64,000 nucleotides of DNA from assembly GCF_905120355.1 (NCBI RefSeq), contig NZ_CAJHOB010000004.1, positions 62,001-126,000 on the forward strand, written 5' to 3'. Below are positions 50,122 through 64,000 of this stretch, piece by piece. A program made the position numbers and the translations under genes. Within the stretch, counting starts at the first letter, position 1. Every line of letters begins with the position of its first letter. The notes under the pieces are model-generated. The model worked only from the letters and a program-made list of their open reading frames with translations, was not told where the DNA came from and made no database searches. Source of the DNA: Azonexus hydrophilus. Its GTDB lineage: Bacteria; Pseudomonadota; Gammaproteobacteria; Burkholderiales; Rhodocyclaceae.

Positions 50122-51144
50122 TCAGCGGAAACCGTTGCGATCAAAGATCATCTGCGCCTTGGCCTGGTACATCGCCAGGCTGTTCACCGGCAGGGTGTCG
50201 GCCTTGAACTTGCCGAGACGGTTGAGCGCCGGATTGTCGATCTTCACCGAGGTGACAACCGGCCATTCATTGTTGCCGTCGGCAAAGTAGCGCTGGGCAG
50301 AATCGGAGGCCAGGTATTCCAGGAATTTCTGCGCCGCTGCCTTGTTCGGGGCGTGTTTCAGAATGCCACCGCCGGAGACATTGACGTGGGTGCCGGTGGT
50401 TTTCTGGTTCGGCCAGATGATGCCGATCTGGGCCACGGTTTCCTGGTCGGCCGGCTTGTCCGAGCGCATCAGGCGGGCGACGTAATAGCTGTTGGAAATG
50501 GTGACGCCGCATTCACCGGCCGCCACGGCGCGGATCTGGTCGGTGTCGCCACCTTTCGGGGTGCGGGCGAAGTTGGCGACCATGCCGCGTGCCATCGCTT
50601 CCGCTTTGGCCTCGCCCTCATGGGCAATGACCGAGGCGAGCAGGGACAGGTTGTAGGGGTGGGAACCTGAACGTGAGCAGAATTGCCCCTTCAGCTTCGG
50701 GTCGGCCAGATCGGCGTAGTTCTGCACATCGGCAGGCTGGATGCGCGTCTTGTTATAGACGATGACGCGGGCGCGCAACGAGAACGCTGCCCATTCGTCA
50801 GTGCGCAGGTGGGTCGGAATGCGTTTTTCCAGTACGGCTGACTTGAGCGGTGCAAACAGGCCCATGTTGCGCGCCTTGGCCAGGCGCGAGGCATCCACCG
50901 TCAGCAGCACGTCGGCCGGGCTGTTGGCGCCTTCGTTGCGGATGCGCTCAAGCAACTCGTCTTCCTTGGCCTCGATGCGCTTGATCCGGATGCCGGTCTG
51001 CTTGGTGAAATCGGCATAGAGCGCTTCATCGGTCTGGTAATGGCGAGCGGAATAGATGTTGAGCACGTTTTCTTCGGCGCCTGCCGGGGTTAGCGTGGCG
51101 GCCAGGGTGGTCAGTGCGAGTGCAGCGGTTGAGGCAAATTTCAT
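50122..51144 (-). CDS. Fe(3+) ABC transporter substrate-binding protein
   Basis: A 340-aa periplasmic ferric-binding protein of the FbpA/FutA type. Signal peptide residues 1-23 (MKFASTAALALTTLAATLTPAGA), then NVLNIYSARHYQTDEALY, the conserved VDASRLAKARN, SRSGSHPYNLSL and the paired iron-ligand tyrosines in SNSYYVARL. No permease or ATPase gene is nearby, so it must use a transporter coded elsewhere. It follows the Fur-boxed DUF2325 gene with 77 bases between and may share its transcript. Confidence 0.93.
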   Translation of the reverse strand: MKFASTAALALTTLAATLTPAGAEENVLNIYSARHYQTDEALYADFTKQTGIRIKRIEAKEDELLERIRNEGANSPADVLLTVDASRLAKARNMGLFAPLKSAVLEKRIPTHLRTDEWAAFSLRARVIVYNKTRIQPADVQNYADLADPKLKGQFCSRSGSHPYNLSLLASVIAHEGEAKAEAMARGMVANFARTPKGGDTDQIRAVAAGECGVTISNSYYVARLMRSDKPADQETVAQIGIIWPNQKTTGTHVNVSGGGILKHAPNKAAAQKFLEYLASDSAQRYFADGNNEWPVVTSVKIDNPALNRLGKFKADTLPVNSLAMYQAKAQMIFDRNGFR

Positions 51145-51221
51145 GAGGTGGCTACTCCGGGGATCGTGTGAGGGAAATGGGAAAGGGGTTCTGGGTAGAA
51201 GGGCTGTGGCATTCAGGGAAA

Positions 51222-52469
51222 TCAGGTTATCTCGGCGCAGGCATCGCTGATGACGCGTTCGAAACTGGACAGTCCGGCGTTGCGGACGAAGCGACAAGGC
51301 TTGCCGGTGCGCTTGCACTGGTCCTTGATGCGCCAGTAGGCATTGTGGCTGATGCAGCCAGCCTGGCAGATGACCAGATCAGCGCCGGACAAGGCGCCAT
51401 CGATGCGGTGCAGACTTTCTTCGACACCACCGTCGTGGTGGATGAAATGTCCGCCATAGTGCTCGACTCGTTGCCGGTAGGCGTCTATCGCACCGGTCCG
51501 GCCGCCGACACAGAGCACGCATTTGCCGGCCAAGCCTTTGCTCAGGTTGGTGACGGAACACTCGGTGGCTGCGGCGTCGGCCATAAGGTAATCATTGAGG
51601 ATTTCCTCGGTGTGTTGCAGGCGCTGGCTCTGGCGCCCGATTTCGGCTTCGAGGCTGTTGGCCCGTGCGCTCAGCAGCAGGTTGCGGGCTTCGGCCGCAC
51701 TGGCGCGCTGCAGGAGCTGCTGGCGCTCTCTGAGTTCGGGTAGTTGTGCGTGCAGTTGCTCAAGCTGCTGCTGCAGATGGGCGATAGCGGCATCGCGCCC
51801 GCTTAGTTCGGACCGCAGGTCGATGATGTGCTGGTTAAGTTGCCGCTCATCTTTGGCTCGCTCCTGCCGTAGTGAGGAAGTTTCCTGCCGGGCCTTGTCG
51901 AGTTGCTGGCGCAGATCTTGGTTTTCTGTGCGCAGCTTGTTCAGCATTTTTATATCGGCACGGGCGCCGCTGCCGATCTGGTGCTGGATCATGTGGATGT
52001 CTGCATAGACTTCATGCTCTAGCGGCGCATCGCAGGCCGGGTGCGTCCACGTTGCCCAGAGCGCACCGGGAATGCCGCTGCCCGCTGCTGTGGCTTCACG
52101 CCACAAGAGGCGCAGGCTGTTGGTGTCACGGGCGGTGGCAAAGCGACGCACGGTTTGCGGATAGCGTTTTTCCAGCTGTTTTTGCAGCAATTCGGCTAGT
52201 GGCGTCCGGCTCTCGCTGTTGCCCACGGCCGTGGTGTGCAGGACAAAATCGCTTGTTCCGTGGGGAATGTGCATCAGCTTTTTCATCAATGCCCGCAGTT
52301 CGGCAACGTCGAAGCAGGTGCCGATCACCGGACAGTGAAATTTGTGCGGGATTTCCCACAGCTTGCGCCGGCGCGTTGTTTTTCCCGCCGCAGGACGACT
52401 GTCCACTGGCGTGGTTGCCAGAGAAAGGGCGAAGCTATCAGCCGTCGTGTGTGGCGAGGTGGGTTCCAT
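51222..52469 (-). CDS. DUF2325 protein with long coiled coil
   Basis: A 415-aa protein. An N-terminal region with HCPVIGTCFDVAELRALM (like the HPC half of related iron-regulated proteins) is followed by a long coiled coil (about 165-300, heptads rich in Q/L/E) and a C-terminal DUF2325 domain (about 315-400: VLCVGGRTGAIDAYRQ, HHDGGVEESL, ADLVICQAGCISHNAYW). DUF2325 has a Rossmann-like pattern and conserved Cys; its function is unknown. The gene has a Fur-like box at its promoter and precedes a ferric-binding protein gene, so iron starvation should induce it. Confidence 0.82.
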   Translation of the reverse strand: MEPTSPHTTADSFALSLATTPVDSRPAAGKTTRRRKLWEIPHKFHCPVIGTCFDVAELRALMKKLMHIPHGTSDFVLHTTAVGNSESRTPLAELLQKQLEKRYPQTVRRFATARDTNSLRLLWREATAAGSGIPGALWATWTHPACDAPLEHEVYADIHMIQHQIGSGARADIKMLNKLRTENQDLRQQLDKARQETSSLRQERAKDERQLNQHIIDLRSELSGRDAAIAHLQQQLEQLHAQLPELRERQQLLQRASAAEARNLLLSARANSLEAEIGRQSQRLQHTEEILNDYLMADAAATECSVTNLSKGLAGKCVLCVGGRTGAIDAYRQRVEHYGGHFIHHDGGVEESLHRIDGALSGADLVICQAGCISHNAYWRIKDQCKRTGKPCRFVRNAGLSSFERVISDACAEIT

Positions 52470-52511
52470 GATCGGATTCCGTGAGGCGTGCGCAGATGGC
52501 TGCGTTCAGAA

Positions 52512-52551
52512 TAACAAGAATTATTCTCAATATAAAGCGCTGCGCTGTCAA
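52512..52551 (-). promoter_or_regulatory. Fur-like box and promoter of the DUF2325 gene
   Basis: On the minus strand TTGACA (52551-52546), 17 bp, then GAGAAT (52528-52523) inside the dyad TGAGAAT-A-ATTCTTG. This repeats the layout of the bfd and 53.9-kb promoters. Confidence 0.7.
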
Positions 52552-52591
52552 TAGAAACGCGCCGGCAGAGGCGGACGCAGGTGGGATAGGA

Positions 52592-52622
52592 GGAAGGCAC
52601 CGCTGTCTGGACGGTGCCTTCC
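52592..52622 (-). terminator. Hairpin after hemP
   Basis: GGAAGGCACCG and CGGTGCCTTCC form an 11-bp perfect stem with a 9-base loop, 49 bases past the hemP stop. No long T-run follows. Confidence 0.6.
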
Positions 52623-52671
52623 GGTGAGCGGTCGGGGTGGCCTGCCTTCCGCTCGGGTGGGATCGGTGCGT

Positions 52672-52911
52672 TTACTTGGTCAGGATCAGCTTACCCTGGC
52701 GGGTGATGCGCAGACGGTAGTCGGTGCCCATGTGGTGAATGCAGATTTCGCTGGCGTTGCCGAACAGGGCTTGACTGAGGAGGGTCCTGGTCGGTGGAGG
52801 ACAGGCGTCTGCTGCGTTGGTGCCGACCATTGGCGCGGCGGCATCGCTGCCGAGACAGTCGGTGGCAGAGTGCCGGGGTGTCGTCGAAGTCCGGGAAGGC
52901 GGCTGGTTCAT
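52672..52911 (-). CDS. hemP: Hemin uptake protein HemP
   Basis: A 79-aa protein. The last 45 residues match the HemP family: LLSQALFGNASEICIHHMG, then YRLRITRQGKLILTK. The N-terminal half is a Ser/Thr/Pro-rich, poorly conserved stretch longer than in most HemP proteins. HemP/HmuP acts as a small regulator needed for haem-receptor expression in Bradyrhizobium and Burkholderia. It lies 14 bases after the S4-paralogue gene in a Fur-type operon. Confidence 0.88.
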   Translation of the reverse strand: MNQPPSRTSTTPRHSATDCLGSDAAAPMVGTNAADACPPPTRTLLSQALFGNASEICIHHMGTDYRLRITRQGKLILTK

Positions 52912-52925
52912 GATGTGGCCGCTAT

Positions 52926-53543
52926 TTACATGCGGGTGGCGTAGTACTCGACGATGCGTTGCAGGTCGAGAGGAAAGGGGGCGGCATCGGCATCTGGCAG
53001 GTGGCTCAGGCGGGCCGTTAGCGTCGTGTCGTCCAGGCTGATCCATTCCGGGCGTTCCAGCGAAGGAGCTTCGCGGGTGAAGCGCACCAAGTCGATCTTG
53101 CTGCCGGCTTCGGTCGGGCCGAAGCTGTCGCCGACGCGCAGGCGGATCGAAGGAATGGTGACGCGCTTGCCGTTGAGTTGGAAATGGCCGTGGCTGACGA
53201 GTTGCCGTGCGGCGGGGATGGTCGGGGCGAAACCCGCGCGGAAAACCAGGTTGTCGAGGCGGCGTTCGAGCAGTTCGACCAATTTGTCGCCTGTGGCACC
53301 ACGGTGCCGCTTGGCATCGGTGACGGCGCGGCGCAACTGGCGCTCGGTCAGCCCGTAGTTGTAGCGCAGTTTCTGCTTTTCCATGAGCTGCAGGCCGAAT
53401 TCGGATTTGCGCGCGGCGACCTTGCGCGCGCCGTGCTGACCAGGCGGCTGGTTGCGTTCCTGCATCGATTTGCGTGACAGACCAGGGAGATCGACGCCGA
53501 GGGCGCGCAGGACTTTCAGGCGAGGGCCGGTGTAACGGGACAT
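52926..53543 (-). CDS. Ribosomal protein S4 paralogue, cysteine-less form
   Basis: A 205-aa S4-family protein (PGQHGARKVAARKSEFGLQLMEKQKLR region, the S4 RNA-binding domain LDNLVFRAGFAPTIPAARQLVSHGHF region). The N-terminus MSRYTGPRLKVLRALGVDLPG is closer to the cyanobacterial/plastid type than to the usual proteobacterial one, and it has no cysteine at all. The place, in an iron-regulated operon with hemP and away from the S13-S11-S4-rpoA cluster, marks it as an extra copy. It could replace housekeeping S4 under iron starvation or regulate translation of its operon; neither is shown. Confidence 0.88.
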   Translation of the reverse strand: MSRYTGPRLKVLRALGVDLPGLSRKSMQERNQPPGQHGARKVAARKSEFGLQLMEKQKLRYNYGLTERQLRRAVTDAKRHRGATGDKLVELLERRLDNLVFRAGFAPTIPAARQLVSHGHFQLNGKRVTIPSIRLRVGDSFGPTEAGSKIDLVRFTREAPSLERPEWISLDDTTLTARLSHLPDADAAPFPLDLQRIVEYYATRM

Positions 53544-59226: not shown

Positions 59227-59574
59227 TCAGTTGCCGGAGGGCGCGGCAGGTTCTGACGTGCCCTCCGGTACATAGACCATCGAGCCATCCTTCATCTTGT
59301 AGGCAACGCCGGCCTTTTCGCCATCGCCGCCGCCGATTTCGCCGCTGGCCTTGTATTTCTCGATCTTCTCGCCCTTCTTGATGAGCACTTCCATCGTCGG
59401 TTTGCCGGGATCGGTAATGACTGTCACGTCCTGCTGGTTGAAGGGGTTGATCAGTGGGTTCTGCGCCACGGTGATGAGCAGGGCCGCGATGATGACGAGA
59501 AAGATGTCGATCAGATTGACCACCGACAGGATCGGATCTTCGGTTTCCGGTTCGTGCAGCAGTTTGAGGCTCAT
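59227..59574 (-). CDS. DUF2149 protein (ExbD-like, HmuV-type)
   Basis: A 115-aa protein with one N-terminal membrane helix (DPILSVVNLIDIFLVIIAALL, an ExbD/TolR-like Asp-bearing pattern) and a short periplasmic domain (KGEKIEKYKASGEIGGGDGEKAG is split by loops; then YKMKDGSMVYVPEG). DUF2149 proteins accompany MotA/TolQ/ExbB partners in operons with CobN-like proteins and TonB receptors. It overlaps the channel gene by four bases (ATGA), so the pair probably energises the TonB receptor. Confidence 0.85.
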   Translation of the reverse strand: MSLKLLHEPETEDPILSVVNLIDIFLVIIAALLITVAQNPLINPFNQQDVTVITDPGKPTMEVLIKKGEKIEKYKASGEIGGGDGEKAGVAYKMKDGSMVYVPEGTSEPAAPSGN

Positions 59575-60053
59575 GCGTTTGCTCCGCGTAGCGCCTGGAT
59601 TTCCAGAAGTTCTTCGGCCAGCCAGCGGCGGCGCACGTTGACCGCCCAGTAGGTGATGGAAGCGGCGATCAGCGCCAGGATGACTGCCGAAAAGGCGATG
59701 GTCAGATTGTGCGAAACGTCGGCGAGATTGCCGTCGGAGAGTGATTTCAGCGCCGGACCCATCGGGATCATGGTGGCGACCAGACCGAGCATCGGTGTCA
59801 CCCGGCTGGCGATGCGCTGATTTTCCAGCAGTTTGTGGGCGAAAACGTCGAGTTCATCGTCGGAGAGCCTGGGCTGGCGGATGAAATGTGCCAGCAGCGG
59901 GCGGCCCTTGCCGCTTTTGCGGCGCAGGGCTAGGACGAGGAATTCGCCGAGGACCCAGAAGGCGTAGAGGAACAGGGCAGCGATCAGTACCAGGGTCGGT
60001 AGCAGGAACAGCTGCGAGATCTGGTACATGGTGAGTTCGACAAGGTGCGACAT
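59571..60053 (-). CDS. MotA/TolQ/ExbB proton-channel family protein
   Basis: A 160-aa protein with three membrane helices: QLFLLPTLVLIAALFLYAFW, VTPMLGLVATMIPMGPALKSL and NLTIAFSAVILALIAASITYW. These correspond to the ExbB/TolQ channel helices with the TMIP.G turn. It should form a proton-driven complex with the DUF2149 protein. ATG 60053 follows GGAG at five bases; the longer frame upstream overlaps the receptor gene and is not real. Confidence 0.88.
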   Translation of the reverse strand: MSHLVELTMYQISQLFLLPTLVLIAALFLYAFWVLGEFLVLALRRKSGKGRPLLAHFIRQPRLSDDELDVFAHKLLENQRIASRVTPMLGLVATMIPMGPALKSLSDGNLADVSHNLTIAFSAVILALIAASITYWAVNVRRRWLAEELLEIQALRGANA

Positions 60054-60100
60054 GGTGACTCCGTGTGTGTTGTCAGGGGAAAATAAATGAAAACAGTTGC

Positions 60101-62260
60101 TTACCACTTGCCTTCGAGTGATAAAAGCAGCGTCCGCTGGCCGCGTTCGGTGCTGGCCAGACGCCAGTCGTCGCTGCCGGCGGCGTAGGTGGACAGGCGG
60201 CGGGTGTCGGCGCGCAGCACGTTCTGGGCGTCCAGGCGCAGGTTGAGTTGCGGTGTCAGGCGGCGGCTGAGGTAAAGGTCGAGCAGTTCGCGGCGGTTTT
60301 GCCTGCTGGCGGTTTCGCCCGCAATGGCGGTACGGTTGCGTCCGTGCAGGGTGAGATGGAAACCGGCGCTCATCTGCCAGGCCGGCAGCGCCTGGTCGAC
60401 GCCCAGTGTCCATTGGTAGCGCGGCAGTTCGCGGGCATCGCGCTGGCGGTTCAGGCGCTGGTCGTCGACGCGGGCGCGCGGCAGGGTCAGGTGGCTGCGC
60501 AGTGCCGCACCTTTCCAGCCGAGGGCATCGGTTTTCAGCTTGGCGTCGAGTTCCAGCCCCCAGTGGCGGGCGGTGCCTTCGTTGTAGGGGCGTTCGACCC
60601 AACGCGTACCTTCGCGTTGCGTGCGCCGCTCGATGAAGTTCTCGGTGCGGCGCAGATAGACGTTGGCGCCGACGGTGCCGAGTTCGTTGAGCAGGCGTTT
60701 TTCCAGCGCGGCTTCCCAATTGACGTTGCGCTCGGCCTTGAGGTTGCCATTGCCGGCGCGGTCAGGTTCGAGCGGGCTGTTGGCGGTGGTGGCATGCACG
60801 GTCAGGCCGGAAATTTCGTCGAGTTTGGGCGCCTTGATGCCGGCGCCGATGGAGGAGCGCAGGACGAGATCGGCGGCCAGTTCATAGCGGGCGGCGAGCG
60901 AGGGGGCGATCTGGCTGGCGTGCTGTGAGCGGCCATCGGCTTCGAGCGCGATGTGTTCGCCGCGCAGGCCGCCGGTCAGGGTCAGCTTGTCGCTGACCGG
61001 CGCTTCGTGTTGCAGCCAGGCGGTCCACTGTTTCGCGGTGGCCTCGTGGTCGCCGCGCCAGGCGGTGTTGCCGCCAGCGCTGCCGGTGATGCGCTGCGTT
61101 TCCTCGCGTCGGAGCCAGCTTTGCTCCAGGCCGAGGGAGAGTAGCCCCAAGCCGACGCCGCGATCCAGGCGCACTGCCGAGGATACTTCGTTCTCGTCGC
61201 GGCGCAGGCGCTCGTTGTTGGCGGCGGTAACGAGGCCGGCGGCATCGCGCCAGCGGCGGTCGGTATTGGTGTGGCGCTGGCCGTCGAGGACGGCGATGCG
61301 ACCCGAGAGCTTGCCGAGGTCGAGCTTGGTTTCACCCTCGGCGCGCAGGCGCAGCAGGGTGATGCGGCTGTCTTCATCCTCGCGCCGGCTGCCGTCGGCG
61401 GCAAGGCCGGTGCCGGCAGCCGGGTTGGCGTAGGCGGCGCGTTGGGCGCGCGTCGTGCGCTCGCCTTCGTTGTGGTAAATGCTCGGCCACAGGGTGAAGC
61501 TGCCCGTCGCGCCGCGCCAGGTGAGGCGTGGCGCGAGGACGAATTCGTTGAGCGTGTAGGCGCCGCGCTCACGCTCGCTTTGCCATTGGTCGCGGACGCC
61601 GGCGCTGGCGTGCTGGCGGTCGAGCTTTTTGTCGGTGGGCAGGCCGTGGTGGTTGATGGAGATCGGCAGACTCCAGGAAAAATCCTTGTCGCCGCCGCCC
61701 AGGCTGGTCGAAAACTGGCCGTTGGCCTCGTCGCCGCGCGTGCCGGCGGCTAGGCGCAGGGTGGTGGACGGGGCGTTCGGCGTGTTCGGGCGCGCCTTCT
61801 TCATGATGAGGTTCACCGTGACCGCTGCCGCGCCGCCGTGTTCGGCGGAAGCGCCGCGCAGGATCTCGATGCGTTCGAGTTCGCCGGAGGGCATGCGACC
61901 CACCGTGGTCAGCGCGTAACGGGCGTTAGCGCTGGGGCGCTCGCCGTCGACCAGGAACTGCACCGCGTCGCGGCCCATGCCGCGGGCGTTGCCGGACGGC
62001 CCGCCGTCGCCACTGTGGCCGCTGGCGTCGATGCCGGGCAGCTTGCGGATCACTTCATTGACGGTCAGCCCGCCCAGCGCCTCGATTTCGGCACGGTTGA
62101 TGATGGTTTTCTGGGTGACTGACGCCTGTTGTTTCTCCAGCGCATCGCTGCTGGCGGTGACGGTGACTTCCTTGAGCGTGCGGGTTTCCTCGGCGGCGGT
62201 GGGAAAGGCCGCCAGGCCGAGGGCGATGCAGGTCAGATGCGGGGTGAGGCGTTTTTTCAT
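60101..62260 (-). CDS. TonB-dependent outer-membrane receptor
   Basis: A 719-aa receptor. Signal peptide residues 1-23 (ending FPTAAEE), a TonB-box-like LKEVTVTAS, the plug domain (VNEVIRKLPGIDAS, DAVQFLVDGERPS, GELERIEILRGASAEHGGAA) and a 22-strand-type barrel ending in LLLSLEGKW with the terminal aromatic. Within the operon its partners (CobN-like, ExbB-like, DUF2149) suggest a tetrapyrrole such as haem as substrate; the plug motif itself does not decide between haem and cobalamin. The ATG overlaps the CobN-like stop as ATGA. Confidence 0.92.
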   Translation of the reverse strand: MKKRLTPHLTCIALGLAAFPTAAEETRTLKEVTVTASSDALEKQQASVTQKTIINRAEIEALGGLTVNEVIRKLPGIDASGHSGDGGPSGNARGMGRDAVQFLVDGERPSANARYALTTVGRMPSGELERIEILRGASAEHGGAAAVTVNLIMKKARPNTPNAPSTTLRLAAGTRGDEANGQFSTSLGGGDKDFSWSLPISINHHGLPTDKKLDRQHASAGVRDQWQSERERGAYTLNEFVLAPRLTWRGATGSFTLWPSIYHNEGERTTRAQRAAYANPAAGTGLAADGSRREDEDSRITLLRLRAEGETKLDLGKLSGRIAVLDGQRHTNTDRRWRDAAGLVTAANNERLRRDENEVSSAVRLDRGVGLGLLSLGLEQSWLRREETQRITGSAGGNTAWRGDHEATAKQWTAWLQHEAPVSDKLTLTGGLRGEHIALEADGRSQHASQIAPSLAARYELAADLVLRSSIGAGIKAPKLDEISGLTVHATTANSPLEPDRAGNGNLKAERNVNWEAALEKRLLNELGTVGANVYLRRTENFIERRTQREGTRWVERPYNEGTARHWGLELDAKLKTDALGWKGAALRSHLTLPRARVDDQRLNRQRDARELPRYQWTLGVDQALPAWQMSAGFHLTLHGRNRTAIAGETASRQNRRELLDLYLSRRLTPQLNLRLDAQNVLRADTRRLSTYAAGSDDWRLASTERGQRTLLLSLEGKW

Positions 62261-64000
62261 GCTTGTCTCCGGTAAGCCGAGATACCGCCGCCGAAGCCGG
62301 CAAAGAGCAGCAGCGAAGCGCCAAAGAGAGCCAGCGGCGGGACGGGCGGTTCGTTGTCATCCACTTTTTTCAGCACCATGCCTTCGACGGGCGGCGGCGG
62401 GGCGGGCGGCGTCATGACCAGATCTTCGGCGCTTTGCGGGCGGGTCGGCGCGGGGGCAGCGGGCAGGACGGCGGCGAGGCCGAAGCCGGGGGCGACGAAT
62501 TTCTCGAATACGGCGTTGTCGGTCTGCACGTCGAAGCGGCGGGCGAGGTCGTTGTAGCGATCCTTGAGTTCGGCCACCGTCTTGGCGTCGGCCTGCCAGT
62601 AGCCGTGGCGGGCCATTTCCAGCATCTTCTCGATGGTCTGCGCCAGCGCGTGCGGGTTGTTCTGCTCGAACCAGTTCTTCAGGCCGAGCTGGTGCTTGTC
62701 GCGCACGTAGACGTCGACGAACTCCTGCCACTGGTCGTCGCGCACGATTTCGCGGGCCACGGTGGTCCAGCCGGTGAAGTTGTTCATCGAATCGAGCACT
62801 TGCAGCGTGCCGGAGTAGCCCTCGGCCATCAGCCCCTTGATGTAGCCGGGATGGAAATTGCGGGTGGCGAGTTCCTTGGCGAGAAACTTGTCGGCCCCTT
62901 CGACCTTGCCGGAACCGCTGCCGCGCAGGTTGGAGATGTAGAGTTCCGGCGCCTTGCCGTCGAGATGGCGCACCGCCGCGCCGATGCCGCCGAGGTACTG
63001 GAAGGGGTCGTCGGTGGTGAGCATGCCGTAGAGGTTGGAGGTGCGCGACAGCACCGCGCCCTCGGTGCCTTTCAACTGCTCGGCGTAGAGGTTGACGTCG
63101 ACGCCGTCGGCCCCGGCGATGCCCTTGGTGTTCCAGGCGGTTTCGTCGGCCCCGAAGGCGTACTGCATGTTCTTCAGGTAAAGCTGCGCCATCTTGCGGT
63201 CGGCTTCGGCCTTGCTTTTCCAGGTGTCGGTGGCCAGCGCCGCGTCGTCGAGGCCGGTGCCGTAGCGGCCCGATTCGTTGGAGAAGATGCGGGTTTCCGC
63301 CGCCCGCCGTGCTGCTGCTTCCGGCACGCCGCGCTGCTTGAGGCTGGCGGCGATGCGCAGGCTGTTGGCGTGCACCGGGTTGTCGGCCTCATTGGCGCGG
63401 GCGGCGAGTTCGACCGCTTTCGCCAGTTGCTTCATGGCGTTGGGGAAATGGTCGCGGTACAGGCCGGTAGCGGAAATCACGACGTCGACACGCGGGCGCT
63501 GCATGCTTTCACGCGGCATCAGCTTGACGTCGATGACGCGCCCGCCGGCATCCCACACCGGTTCGACGCCCAGCGCCGCCAATACCTGCGCTTCGAGCAT
63601 GCCCTGATGGCGCATGGTTTCGACCGACCACAGCGAGAAGGCGAGCTTCTTCGGCGGCTTGCCGGTTTTCGCTGTGTGCGCCGCGATCAACTGCTCGGCG
63701 GCATCCTTGCCGGCTTCCCAGGCTTGCTTGGTGGGAACGCGCGAGGGGTCGAAGCCGTAGAGATTGCGGCCCGTGGGCAGCGCGTCCGGGTTCTTCATCG
63801 GGTCGCCGCCGTAGGAGGTCGGGCGGTGCTGGCCGGCCAGCGCCGAGAGCAGGCCGGCCATTTCGCCTGCCGCGCCGAGGTCGACGTACCACTGCTTGCC
63901 TTGTTCGAGCTGGGCCTTGAGTTTTTCATCGACGTTCACCGCCGCACCGGCGAGGTGGTTGCGCAGGAGCTTGAAGGGCGGTGTGTCGCTGATTTTTTCG
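62257..64000 (-). CDS. CobN/ChlH-family protein with C-terminal membrane anchor (partial)
   Basis: The C-terminal 580 residues of a large CobN-type chelatase-like protein; the frame is open to the window edge. Recognisable blocks are PTGRNLYGFDPSRVPTK, LWSVETMRHQGMLEAQVL, LYRDHFPNAM, and FHPGYIKGLMAEGYSG. Unlike cobalt-inserting CobN, it ends with a Pro-rich linker (VMTPPAPPPPVEG) and one membrane helix (about 20 residues, LALFGASLLLFAGFGGG) followed by SAYRRQA, a type-I anchor that puts the main domain outside the cytoplasm. Together with its neighbours this resembles HmuS of Bacteroidetes haem operons. No CobS/CobT genes are in view. Confidence 0.85.
   Translation of the reverse strand, partial: EKISDTPPFKLLRNHLAGAAVNVDEKLKAQLEQGKQWYVDLGAAGEMAGLLSALAGQHRPTSYGGDPMKNPDALPTGRNLYGFDPSRVPTKQAWEAGKDAAEQLIAAHTAKTGKPPKKLAFSLWSVETMRHQGMLEAQVLAALGVEPVWDAGGRVIDVKLMPRESMQRPRVDVVISATGLYRDHFPNAMKQLAKAVELAARANEADNPVHANSLRIAASLKQRGVPEAAARRAAETRIFSNESGRYGTGLDDAALATDTWKSKAEADRKMAQLYLKNMQYAFGADETAWNTKGIAGADGVDVNLYAEQLKGTEGAVLSRTSNLYGMLTTDDPFQYLGGIGAAVRHLDGKAPELYISNLRGSGSGKVEGADKFLAKELATRNFHPGYIKGLMAEGYSGTLQVLDSMNNFTGWTTVAREIVRDDQWQEFVDVYVRDKHQLGLKNWFEQNNPHALAQTIEKMLEMARHGYWQADAKTVAELKDRYNDLARRFDVQTDNAVFEKFVAPGFGLAAVLPAAPAPTRPQSAEDLVMTPPAPPPPVEGMVLKKVDDNEPPVPPLALFGASLLLFAGFGGGISAYRRQA

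Follow-up and report, generated by a model that had tools for sequence, protein, structure and literature searches.

What does a gene labelled as a cobaltochelatase do in an operon that also encodes outer-membrane receptors and an ExbB-like proton-channel protein? The operon in question lies at one end of a 64,000-nucleotide stretch of the 2.88 Mb genome of Azonexus hydrophilus (bases 62001-126000 of contig C4, NZ_CAJHOB010000004.1), referred to here as the window. A first-pass annotation of the window had proposed a tetrapyrrole uptake and metal-removal operon resembling the haem operons of Bacteroidota, which encode the CobN-like protein HmuS; a 2025 report describes a purified member of this family, from a gut Bacteroidota species, that de-chelates haem (PMC12583661; papers are cited here for the passages that bear on this family). 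We conclude that the A. hydrophilus operon most likely pulls iron from haem outside the cytoplasm, and gene and sequence comparisons suggest that its enzyme has a membrane motor of its own, driven by the proton gradient, where its relatives in B12 and chlorophyll synthesis have an ATP motor.

The operon and its iron context

The operon was followed past the window edge in a 20-kb stretch, L002 (window position = L002 position + 58000). The order on the minus strand is a Fur-like site, a TonB-haemin receptor, a ChaN-family protein, the CobN-like protein, a second TonB receptor, an ExbB-like protein and a DUF2149 protein. The features are as follows, with window positions unless L002 is named:

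L002:11593-11611, in the minus-strand row: Fur-like site (ortholog-site matrix)
L002:11516-9246, minus strand: TonB-haemin receptor, first operon gene, beyond the window (TIGR01786, 455 bits, cut-off 324; TIGR01785, 422 bits, cut-off 317)
L002 about 9186-8242, minus strand: ChaN haem-binding family protein, beyond the window (PF04187, E 6.7e-35)
L002:8195-4257, minus strand: CobN-like protein, putative anchored chelatase of 1312 amino acids; its C-terminal part is 62257..64000 of the window (PF02514, E 8.5e-298)
62986..63021, minus strand: active-site segment LTTDDPFQYLGG, aligned with LSLDHxxEFMGG of HmuS
62371..62388, minus strand: tail motif VEGMVL in the Pro-rich linker ahead of the anchor, where DUF2149/ExbB may dock
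62272..62334, minus strand: predicted C-terminal membrane helix of the CobN-like protein (hydropathy; limits by eye)
60101..62260 (L002:4260-2101), minus strand: second TonB-dependent receptor (PF00593 and Plug)
59571..60053 (L002:2053-1571), minus strand: MotA/TolQ/ExbB-like proton-channel protein, HmuU-like, divergent (PF01618, E 5.2e-06, over the cut-off)
59506..59508, minus strand: Asp23 codon of the DUF2149 gene; this membrane-helix residue is a putative proton carrier (Asp in 98% of 50 sequences at this column)
59227..59574 (L002:1574-1227), minus strand: DUF2149 protein, HmuV-like, 115 amino acids (PF09919, E 1.9e-29)

All four genes of the order that had been claimed from the window (CobN-like, TonB receptor, ExbB-like, DUF2149) are in place by Pfam, the CobN-like gene running 2195 bases beyond the window end. 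Overlaps of 4 bases join the CobN-like gene to the second receptor gene and the ExbB-like gene to that of DUF2149, and upstream the intergenic gaps are 46 bases (ChaN to CobN-like) and 59 bases (receptor to ChaN) by the starts chosen; we infer that the operon forms one transcript. The arrangement is not due to chance. Among related genes with at least 5.5 kb of downstream sequence, 21 of 22 have ExbB and DUF2149 genes within 6.5 kb of the CobN-like gene, and the exception is the first gene of locus L028, where a second CobN-like gene intervenes (L028:7728-18412 has two CobN-like genes in one row and a single ExbB-like and DUF2149 pair). Among named organisms, the closest ortholog of the CobN-like protein is that of Azonexus fungiphilus (81% identity).

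The operon had been described as a mirror of hmuR-S-U-V. Because neither an hmuT-like nor an hmuY-like gene was seen there, it is not a gene-for-gene copy of hmuYRSTUV, and it has ChaN and a second receptor instead. Nor is the receptor inside the window clearly one for haem: its TIGR01785 score is only 115 bits against the 317 demanded, and it lies far below the cut-off of all 17 NCBIfam models listed, and it was dropped as an HmuR candidate on account of its haemin score.

The clear TonB-haemin receptor is the one encoded by the first gene of the operon. The receptor could be labelled in 32 of 36 betaproteobacterial loci (28 loci with related genes, the window, L056 from Diaphorobacter, and L117 and L118); the one directly upstream is haemin-type in 20 of the 32, L118 included. 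ChaN-family open reading frames (ORFs) are also present in L021, L032, L043, L044 and L051, and weakly in L033. The Fur box that the first-pass annotation had suggested looking for was found as a Fur-like site of 21.7 bits, which 0 of 1000 shuffled sequences equalled, by a matrix made from 11 orthologous upstream sites with the window excluded, these sites having been chosen among the better matches to the plain consensus. It is the sole matrix match in the 69,928 positions of L002 and L003. Against the plain Fur consensus it has 12 of 19 matches, as good as 12 of 100 shuffles and not significant alone, and two other sites in the window, at 52534 and 53888, outscore it. Further Fur-like sites, outside the matrix, lie upstream in L027, L028, L029, L045, L115, L116, L117 and L118; a Zur consensus scan gave no site in the window operon.

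A hemP gene (PF10636) lies at 52672-52911, about 6 kb from the operon, and hemP occurs in the fetched stretch of 10 of the 36 loci. FeoB is encoded in the host genome, where neither heme oxygenase PF01126 nor the ChuX family was found, other haem-degrading families not having been searched. We conclude that haem-iron acquisition, regulated by Fur, is the best reading of the operon. The hemP gene itself belongs to a minus-strand cluster at 50122-53543 that also encodes a solute-binding protein of iron/thiamine type (no NCBIfam cut-off reached), DUF2325 and a ribosomal protein S4 that by eye lacks N-terminal cysteines, and that contains the Fur-like sites at 52534 and 53888; hemP, DUF2325 and S4 are each present in the fetched stretch of 10 of the 36 CobN-like loci. 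A Stenotrophomonas hemP operon was considered as a related system and set aside, as the passages of the paper describing it name no CobN.

The CobN-like protein among the chelatases

The model NF004644 of NCBIfam names the CobN-like protein a cobaltochelatase (1385 bits against a cut-off of 1248). The cobaltochelatase CobNST and the magnesium chelatase ChlHID share with it the PF02514 catalytic-subunit superfamily and the HxGxHG motif, but they are cytoplasmic and unanchored and work with ATP-driven AAA+ partners (PMC12583661). By hydropathy, the protein studied here has instead the export and C-terminal membrane anchor of HmuS. The N-terminus, which lay outside the window and where the first-pass annotation had advised looking for a signal peptide, is hydrophobic and signal-like on this hydropathy measure, and the anchor noted in the first-pass annotation corresponds to a helix with a Kyte-Doolittle 18-residue maximum of 1.92 within the last 55 residues. 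The gene is the sole CobN-family gene found in the host genome, in which CobT (PF06213) and the CobS N-terminal family (PF12556) have 0 matches; a search of the surrounding 20 kb (L002) against Rfam, riboswitch families included, gave no match, and the genes scanned beside the CobN-like gene are not B12 genes. Because no CobT, CobS N-terminal family, second CobN or operon riboswitch was found, the operon is not one of B12 synthesis. The protein also falls outside the CobN clade (see below), and the B12-synthesis name is a mislabel, as had been anticipated for operons of this kind. Two observations had been named in advance as telling against a haem operon, namely grouping with true CobN beside CobS/CobT and a B12 riboswitch at the operon, and we found neither.

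We aligned 118 CobN-family proteins and built a tree from a chosen subset of 71 with a quick IQ-TREE run (LG+G4), which merits moderate trust, since it is rooted at the midpoint only and some long branches meet. CobN (22 rows) and BchH (9 rows) form separate clades, and the other 40 rows form a third, membrane-anchored group (SH-aLRT 99) that comprises three HmuS (from Bacteroides, Prevotella and Aureibacter plasmids), a gammaproteobacterial type, Trichlorobacter, Runella, the odd rows L066 and L124, and the clade of the window protein. The window protein belongs to a clade of 32 rows (SH-aLRT 95) that excludes HmuS. The proposed kinship with HmuS is thus upheld at the level of the group, outside CobN and BchH, and membership of HmuS itself fails on branch, residues, insertion and motif; judged by its sequence, the CobN-like protein is not HmuS proper and sits on another branch of the third group. 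It should be noted that HmuS of Bacteroides thetaiotaomicron (PMC12583661; PDB 9d26), represented in the tree by the other Bacteroidota HmuS, shares with it the CobN/ChlH fold, export, the C-terminal anchor, ExbB-like and DUF2149 neighbours, a TonB receptor and iron regulation, and is its best match by sequence among solved structures (413.7 bits, against 363.4 for CobN and 356.8 for ChlH).

The key residues reported for HmuS are the haem ligands Met-79 and His-254, the catalytic His-538 and the pair His-1209/Glu-1212, together with a Met-rich insertion (PMC12583661). We compared these positions in 35 aligned rows from the betaproteobacterial loci, the second L028 gene falling elsewhere in the tree. 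His-538 of the HFG(T/A)HG motif is the only one of the residues that is kept, as HYGTHG in the window protein and as His in all 35 rows, and it is a superfamily-wide feature. The place of His-1209 is taken by Asp in 35/35 rows and that of Glu-1212 by Gln in 34/35 (segment LTTDDPFQYLGG), and the HmuS motif LSLDHxxEFMGG is absent. None of the 35 rows has Met or His at the Met-79 and His-254 places, the latter falling on a gap in 34 rows where the alignment is loose, whereas the HmuS rows have His in 3/3 and Met in 2/3. The domain IV insertion spans 79 residues with 1 Met in the window protein, against 138-327 residues with 7-31 Met in the three HmuS, so that the Met-rich insertion is not present. 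In CobN the 1209/1212 pair is Asp/Gln in 22 of 35 rows, in BchH it is His/Asp in 15 of 22 and in HmuS His/Glu in 3 of 3; His/Glu is also found in four further rows of the third group (L015, L060, L119 and L120). The window enzyme thus carries the CobN-like version of the active-site pair. Many columns are invariant among the CobN-like proteins, cleft motifs included. An anchored relative at L122:5826-9869 aligned without the catalytic His of HxGTHG and has lost the domain V motif; it is perhaps inactive.

A possible motor, for the chelatase or for the receptor

In the published Hmu model, HmuU and HmuV, the ExbB-like and DUF2149 proteins, are said to power the outer-membrane receptor (PMC10100974, PMC12583661). 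We asked with which gene the pair travels. A phylum-wide PF02514 search matched 110 of 299 genomes, and 60 regions with 61 CobN-family genes were fetched by score class (every one of the 19 places of middle score outside the host, 20 of the 42 with top scores, and 21 taken from the split matches listed); the selection is thus not a random one, and it contains too few low-scoring genes. In these regions ExbB and DUF2149 both lie within 6.5 kb of 9 of the 10 C-terminally anchored genes and of 0 of the 51 unanchored ones (Fisher 6e-10, for rows related by descent in a non-random sample). The anchored exception, L124, adjoins a true CobN with AAA/VWA genes. Such a neighbourhood, an exported anchored CobN-like gene next to a true CobN and AAA/VWA genes with no ExbB/DUF2149 in the stretch, is found at L124:10222-14271 and L066:7452-11594 (Cupriavidus). 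A small profile detected no AAA/VWA gene near any of the 51 genes accompanied by both ExbB and DUF2149.

DUF2149 is rare, being present in 9 of 143 genomes of the class (four of the matches weak), and in all nine a CobN-family ORF is adjacent, as a fragment only in L013 and L014. Among plasmids it occurs in 11 records, with CobN adjacent in 9 of the 10 fetched; the tenth, L059:4214-4735, is a lone DUF2149 gene after a receptor fragment near repABC on a Paracoccus plasmid, with no CobN in the stretch, and is likely a remnant. By contrast, the tree of the window-clade chelatases shows nine changes of receptor type, eight of them forced by the starred branches (eight changes in all without L117 and L118). 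The receptor types are no better ordered than expected by chance (157 of 500 shuffles gave as few changes), while the ExbB/DUF2149 pair is kept. No TonB receptor was found in the fetched, finite stretch of the pair-bearing loci L058, L041 and L045, or of L020, which has a weak DUF2149.

Of 14 control genomes only that of Methanosarcina acetivorans contains DUF2149, alongside the CobN and MotA/ExbB families and with no match to the ExbD and TonB receptor families. DUF2149 has no match in E. coli, Caulobacter and Bacteroides ihuae, all of which have TonB receptors and ExbD. The archaeal evidence consists of these control-genome tallies, as that for Bacteroidota consists of plasmid records. Archaea are not known to have an outer membrane of this kind. 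HmuV homologs have also been reported in Methanomicrobia (PMC10100974). Because of the association with the anchor, the adjacency of DUF2149 and CobN, the exchange of receptors and the co-occurrence in Methanosarcina, we propose that the ExbB/DUF2149 pair belongs to the chelatase, and the published model in which it energises haem import fits the comparative evidence less well.

DUF2149 has, like stator proteins of the ExbD/TolR/MotB type, a single N-terminal membrane helix with an acidic residue, followed by a small extracytoplasmic part. Glu replaces Asp23 in Runella among the rows printed, and Pro14, Asn20, Gly85, Gly89, Tyr92, Gly97, Tyr101 and Pro103 are invariant (50 sequences above 60 bits), as are Thr94, Pro87, Gly90 and Leu91 in 54 ExbB-like sequences. 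The chelatase has a candidate contact site of its own: a tail motif, [VIT]xG[MQLFY]x[LM], which sits in a mostly Pro-rich linker ahead of the anchor, was present in 48 of 59 anchored tails, where shuffling gives a mean of 1.4, and in none of 58 tails that lack an anchor. The motif was defined after inspection of the tails, and the HmuS rows (3/3) fail its strict form; it may be a docking site for DUF2149/ExbB.

HmuS without its helices is limited to 1-2 turnovers; it depends on NADH, not on ATP, and the activity is located mostly in membranes (PMC12583661). A missing motor would explain the stall, as would other causes that its authors list. No proposal of ExbB/DUF2149 as a chelatase motor was found in the open-licence literature searched, at the level of listings and passages. 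The nearest published idea is that HmuT, HmuU and HmuV may affect HmuS activity (PMC13227078); counts of proteobacterial and archaeal HmuS/HmuV homologs have already been published (PMC10100974), and PMC12583661 mentions CobN-like clusters without an assigned function.

Proposed mechanism, alternatives and related modules

We propose that this is a Fur-regulated haem-iron operon whose anchored CobN-like enzyme de-chelates haem in the periplasm, driven by an ExbB-like/DUF2149 proton motor, and we give the scheme as a whole an even chance. Haem would cross the outer membrane through the TonB-haemin receptor, as its family indicates, and the ChaN-family protein may hold haem or hand it on. The CobN-like protein, predicted to be exported and held in the inner membrane by its C-terminal helix, would remove iron from the tetrapyrrole in the periplasm as HmuS has been shown to do, and the freed iron could enter through FeoB. 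By their association with the chelatase, the ExbB-like and DUF2149 proteins would make up a small stator powered by protons, comparable to ExbBD or TolQR, which may bind the chelatase by the tail motif and anchor and drive its open-close cycle, taking the place of the ATP-driven CobS/CobT or ChlI/ChlD of the cytoplasmic relatives.

A number of observations weigh against this scheme. The Asp/Gln pair is CobN-like and not HmuS-like, His being found at this place in HmuS and in 15/22 BchH, and the substrate may therefore not be porphyrin. The upstream receptor is of another type in 12 of the 32 loci, the three that were scanned scoring best with CirA, below its cut-off, and several loci, L033, L035, L050 and L056 among them, have no Fur-like site of at least 18 bits anywhere in the stretch. 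The best-known operon of this gene set, PA1922-1925 of P. aeruginosa, is under Zur and zinc (PMC4542158). In VIA-align, the AlphaFold model of an ortholog (L021, pLDDT 79) fits CobN 7c6o (Z 47.5, rmsd 7.8, 912 aligned) and ChlH 4zhj (Z 45.9, rmsd 7.7, 824 aligned) better than HmuS 9d26 (Z 39.0, rmsd 8.4, 974 aligned); Foldseek scores CobN and HmuS equally (query TM 0.60 for both) and ChlH below them, and the fold comparison of this model does not decide between HmuS and CobN. As regards the motor, the likeness of DUF2149 to ExbD is confined to one helix (hhalign, 15 columns, Asp in register, probability 30%) and its AlphaFold model is poor (pLDDT 59). Some TonB receptor is kept near most loci, and in Methanosarcina the co-occurrence of CobN, ExbB and DUF2149 is known only at the level of the genome. 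Finally, recombinant HmuS can release iron even when its membrane helices, HmuU and HmuV are all missing (PMC12583661), and a motor is therefore not strictly needed for the chemistry.

The ExbB-like and DUF2149 proteins might alternatively be a dedicated ExbBD pair that powers the outer-membrane receptors of the operon via TonB, the CobN-like protein working unaided. This is the published assignment for HmuU/HmuV and PA1924 (PMC10100974, PMC12583661, PMC8456098, PMC4542158), and it accords with the receptors near most loci and with the resemblance of the DUF2149 helix to ExbD around the Asp. However, the pair tracks the chelatase anchor (9/10 against 0/51) while the receptor type is exchanged nine times, persists in stretches where no receptor was found, and belongs to families present in an archaeon without TonB receptor matches, and the host has three ExbD genes elsewhere; we regard this alternative as rather unlikely, though one to be reckoned with. 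A different substrate, such as a cobalt corrinoid or other metal complex, with iron regulation because the machine replaces or spares iron, is suggested by the active-site pair shared with 22/35 CobN, by the 12/32 receptors that are not haemin-type, and by the B12 riboswitches, hydrogenase operon and Zur control of sister branches described below. The Fur-like site, haemin receptor, ChaN and hemP of the window clade, in which no riboswitch was found at the 14 loci searched or at the window operon, argue against it, and we hold it to be unlikely.

It is also conceivable that the protein binds or senses haem in the envelope without chelatase activity, given that it lacks the haem ligands of HmuS and the second His of the active site, that the relative in L122 aligned without the His of HxGTHG, and that B. 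fragilis losing both CobN-like proteins still released porphyrin (PMC6460266). The retention of that His in 35/35 rows and the many invariant columns, those of the cleft included, make such a role improbable. That the protein is a genuine CobN of aerobic B12 synthesis, as its NF004644 score would have it, is hardly credible for an exported, anchored protein outside the CobN clade in a genome where no CobT, CobS N-terminal family or second CobN was found and whose neighbouring genes, where scanned, are not B12 genes.

Relatives of the preferred haem-iron operon occur in settings linked to other metals. B12 riboswitches are found at the sister-branch modules L017-L020, L058 (40 bits) and L062, whereas none was found at the family cut-off in the 14 window-clade loci searched. 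The loci L017-L020 and L072 have the gammaproteobacterial CobN-like type, which in L017-L020 is anchored and accompanied by an ExbB-like and a very weak DUF2149 protein; in L072, within a B12 cluster, it is without anchor and ExbB. The module of L062 is the plasmid cobN cluster of Trichlorobacter (Geobacter) lovleyi, a strain without CobS/CobT according to PMC3403914. It likewise has an anchored CobN-like, an ExbB-like and a DUF2149 protein, but has two B12 riboswitches upstream, lies among cobalamin genes and adjoins DUF2162 and a full ExbBD-TonB set. In Runella the module lies inside a NiFe-hydrogenase maturation operon (L065:8317-16351) with a membrane protein that has a weak, sub-cut-off similarity to NicO/DsbD; this protein, HmuT (no Pfam match) and DUF2162 occupy one and the same slot ahead of the ExbB gene. 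The PA1922-PA1925 operon, compared by description and not by sequence (PMC4542158, PMC9431628), has the same four gene kinds, PA1925 being named DUF2149 (PMC9431628), but responds to Zur and zinc starvation rather than Fur, its CobN-like gene rising 122-fold on zinc depletion (PMC4542158), and it is described with a receptor named CirA first and no ChaN listed. Hmu-like operons of Bacteroides fragilis that have a cobalamin riboswitch have also been described (PMC10100974). From the riboswitch, hydrogenase and Zur contexts the module therefore seems general, with the receptor and regulator setting the metal.

We put forward, tentatively and at a little short of even confidence, that these proteins are a third class of CobN/ChlH-type enzymes, exported and anchored, whose cycle would be driven by a dedicated stator using the proton motive force (ExbB-like plus DUF2149) and not by an AAA+ ATPase. 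The same machine would strip various metals outside the cytoplasm, iron from haem and, in other branches, probably cobalt, zinc or nickel; HmuS would be one branch, its 1-2 turnovers reflecting the missing motor. A distinct, Fur-regulated betaproteobacterial branch would make haem de-chelation a more general iron route. If it is true that ExbB/DUF2149 drives the chelatase, metal transfer by an enzyme would be powered directly by proton gradients, HmuU/HmuV would have a role other than the published one, and DUF2149 could no longer be regarded solely as a haem-transport marker, the use proposed for it in PMC10100974.

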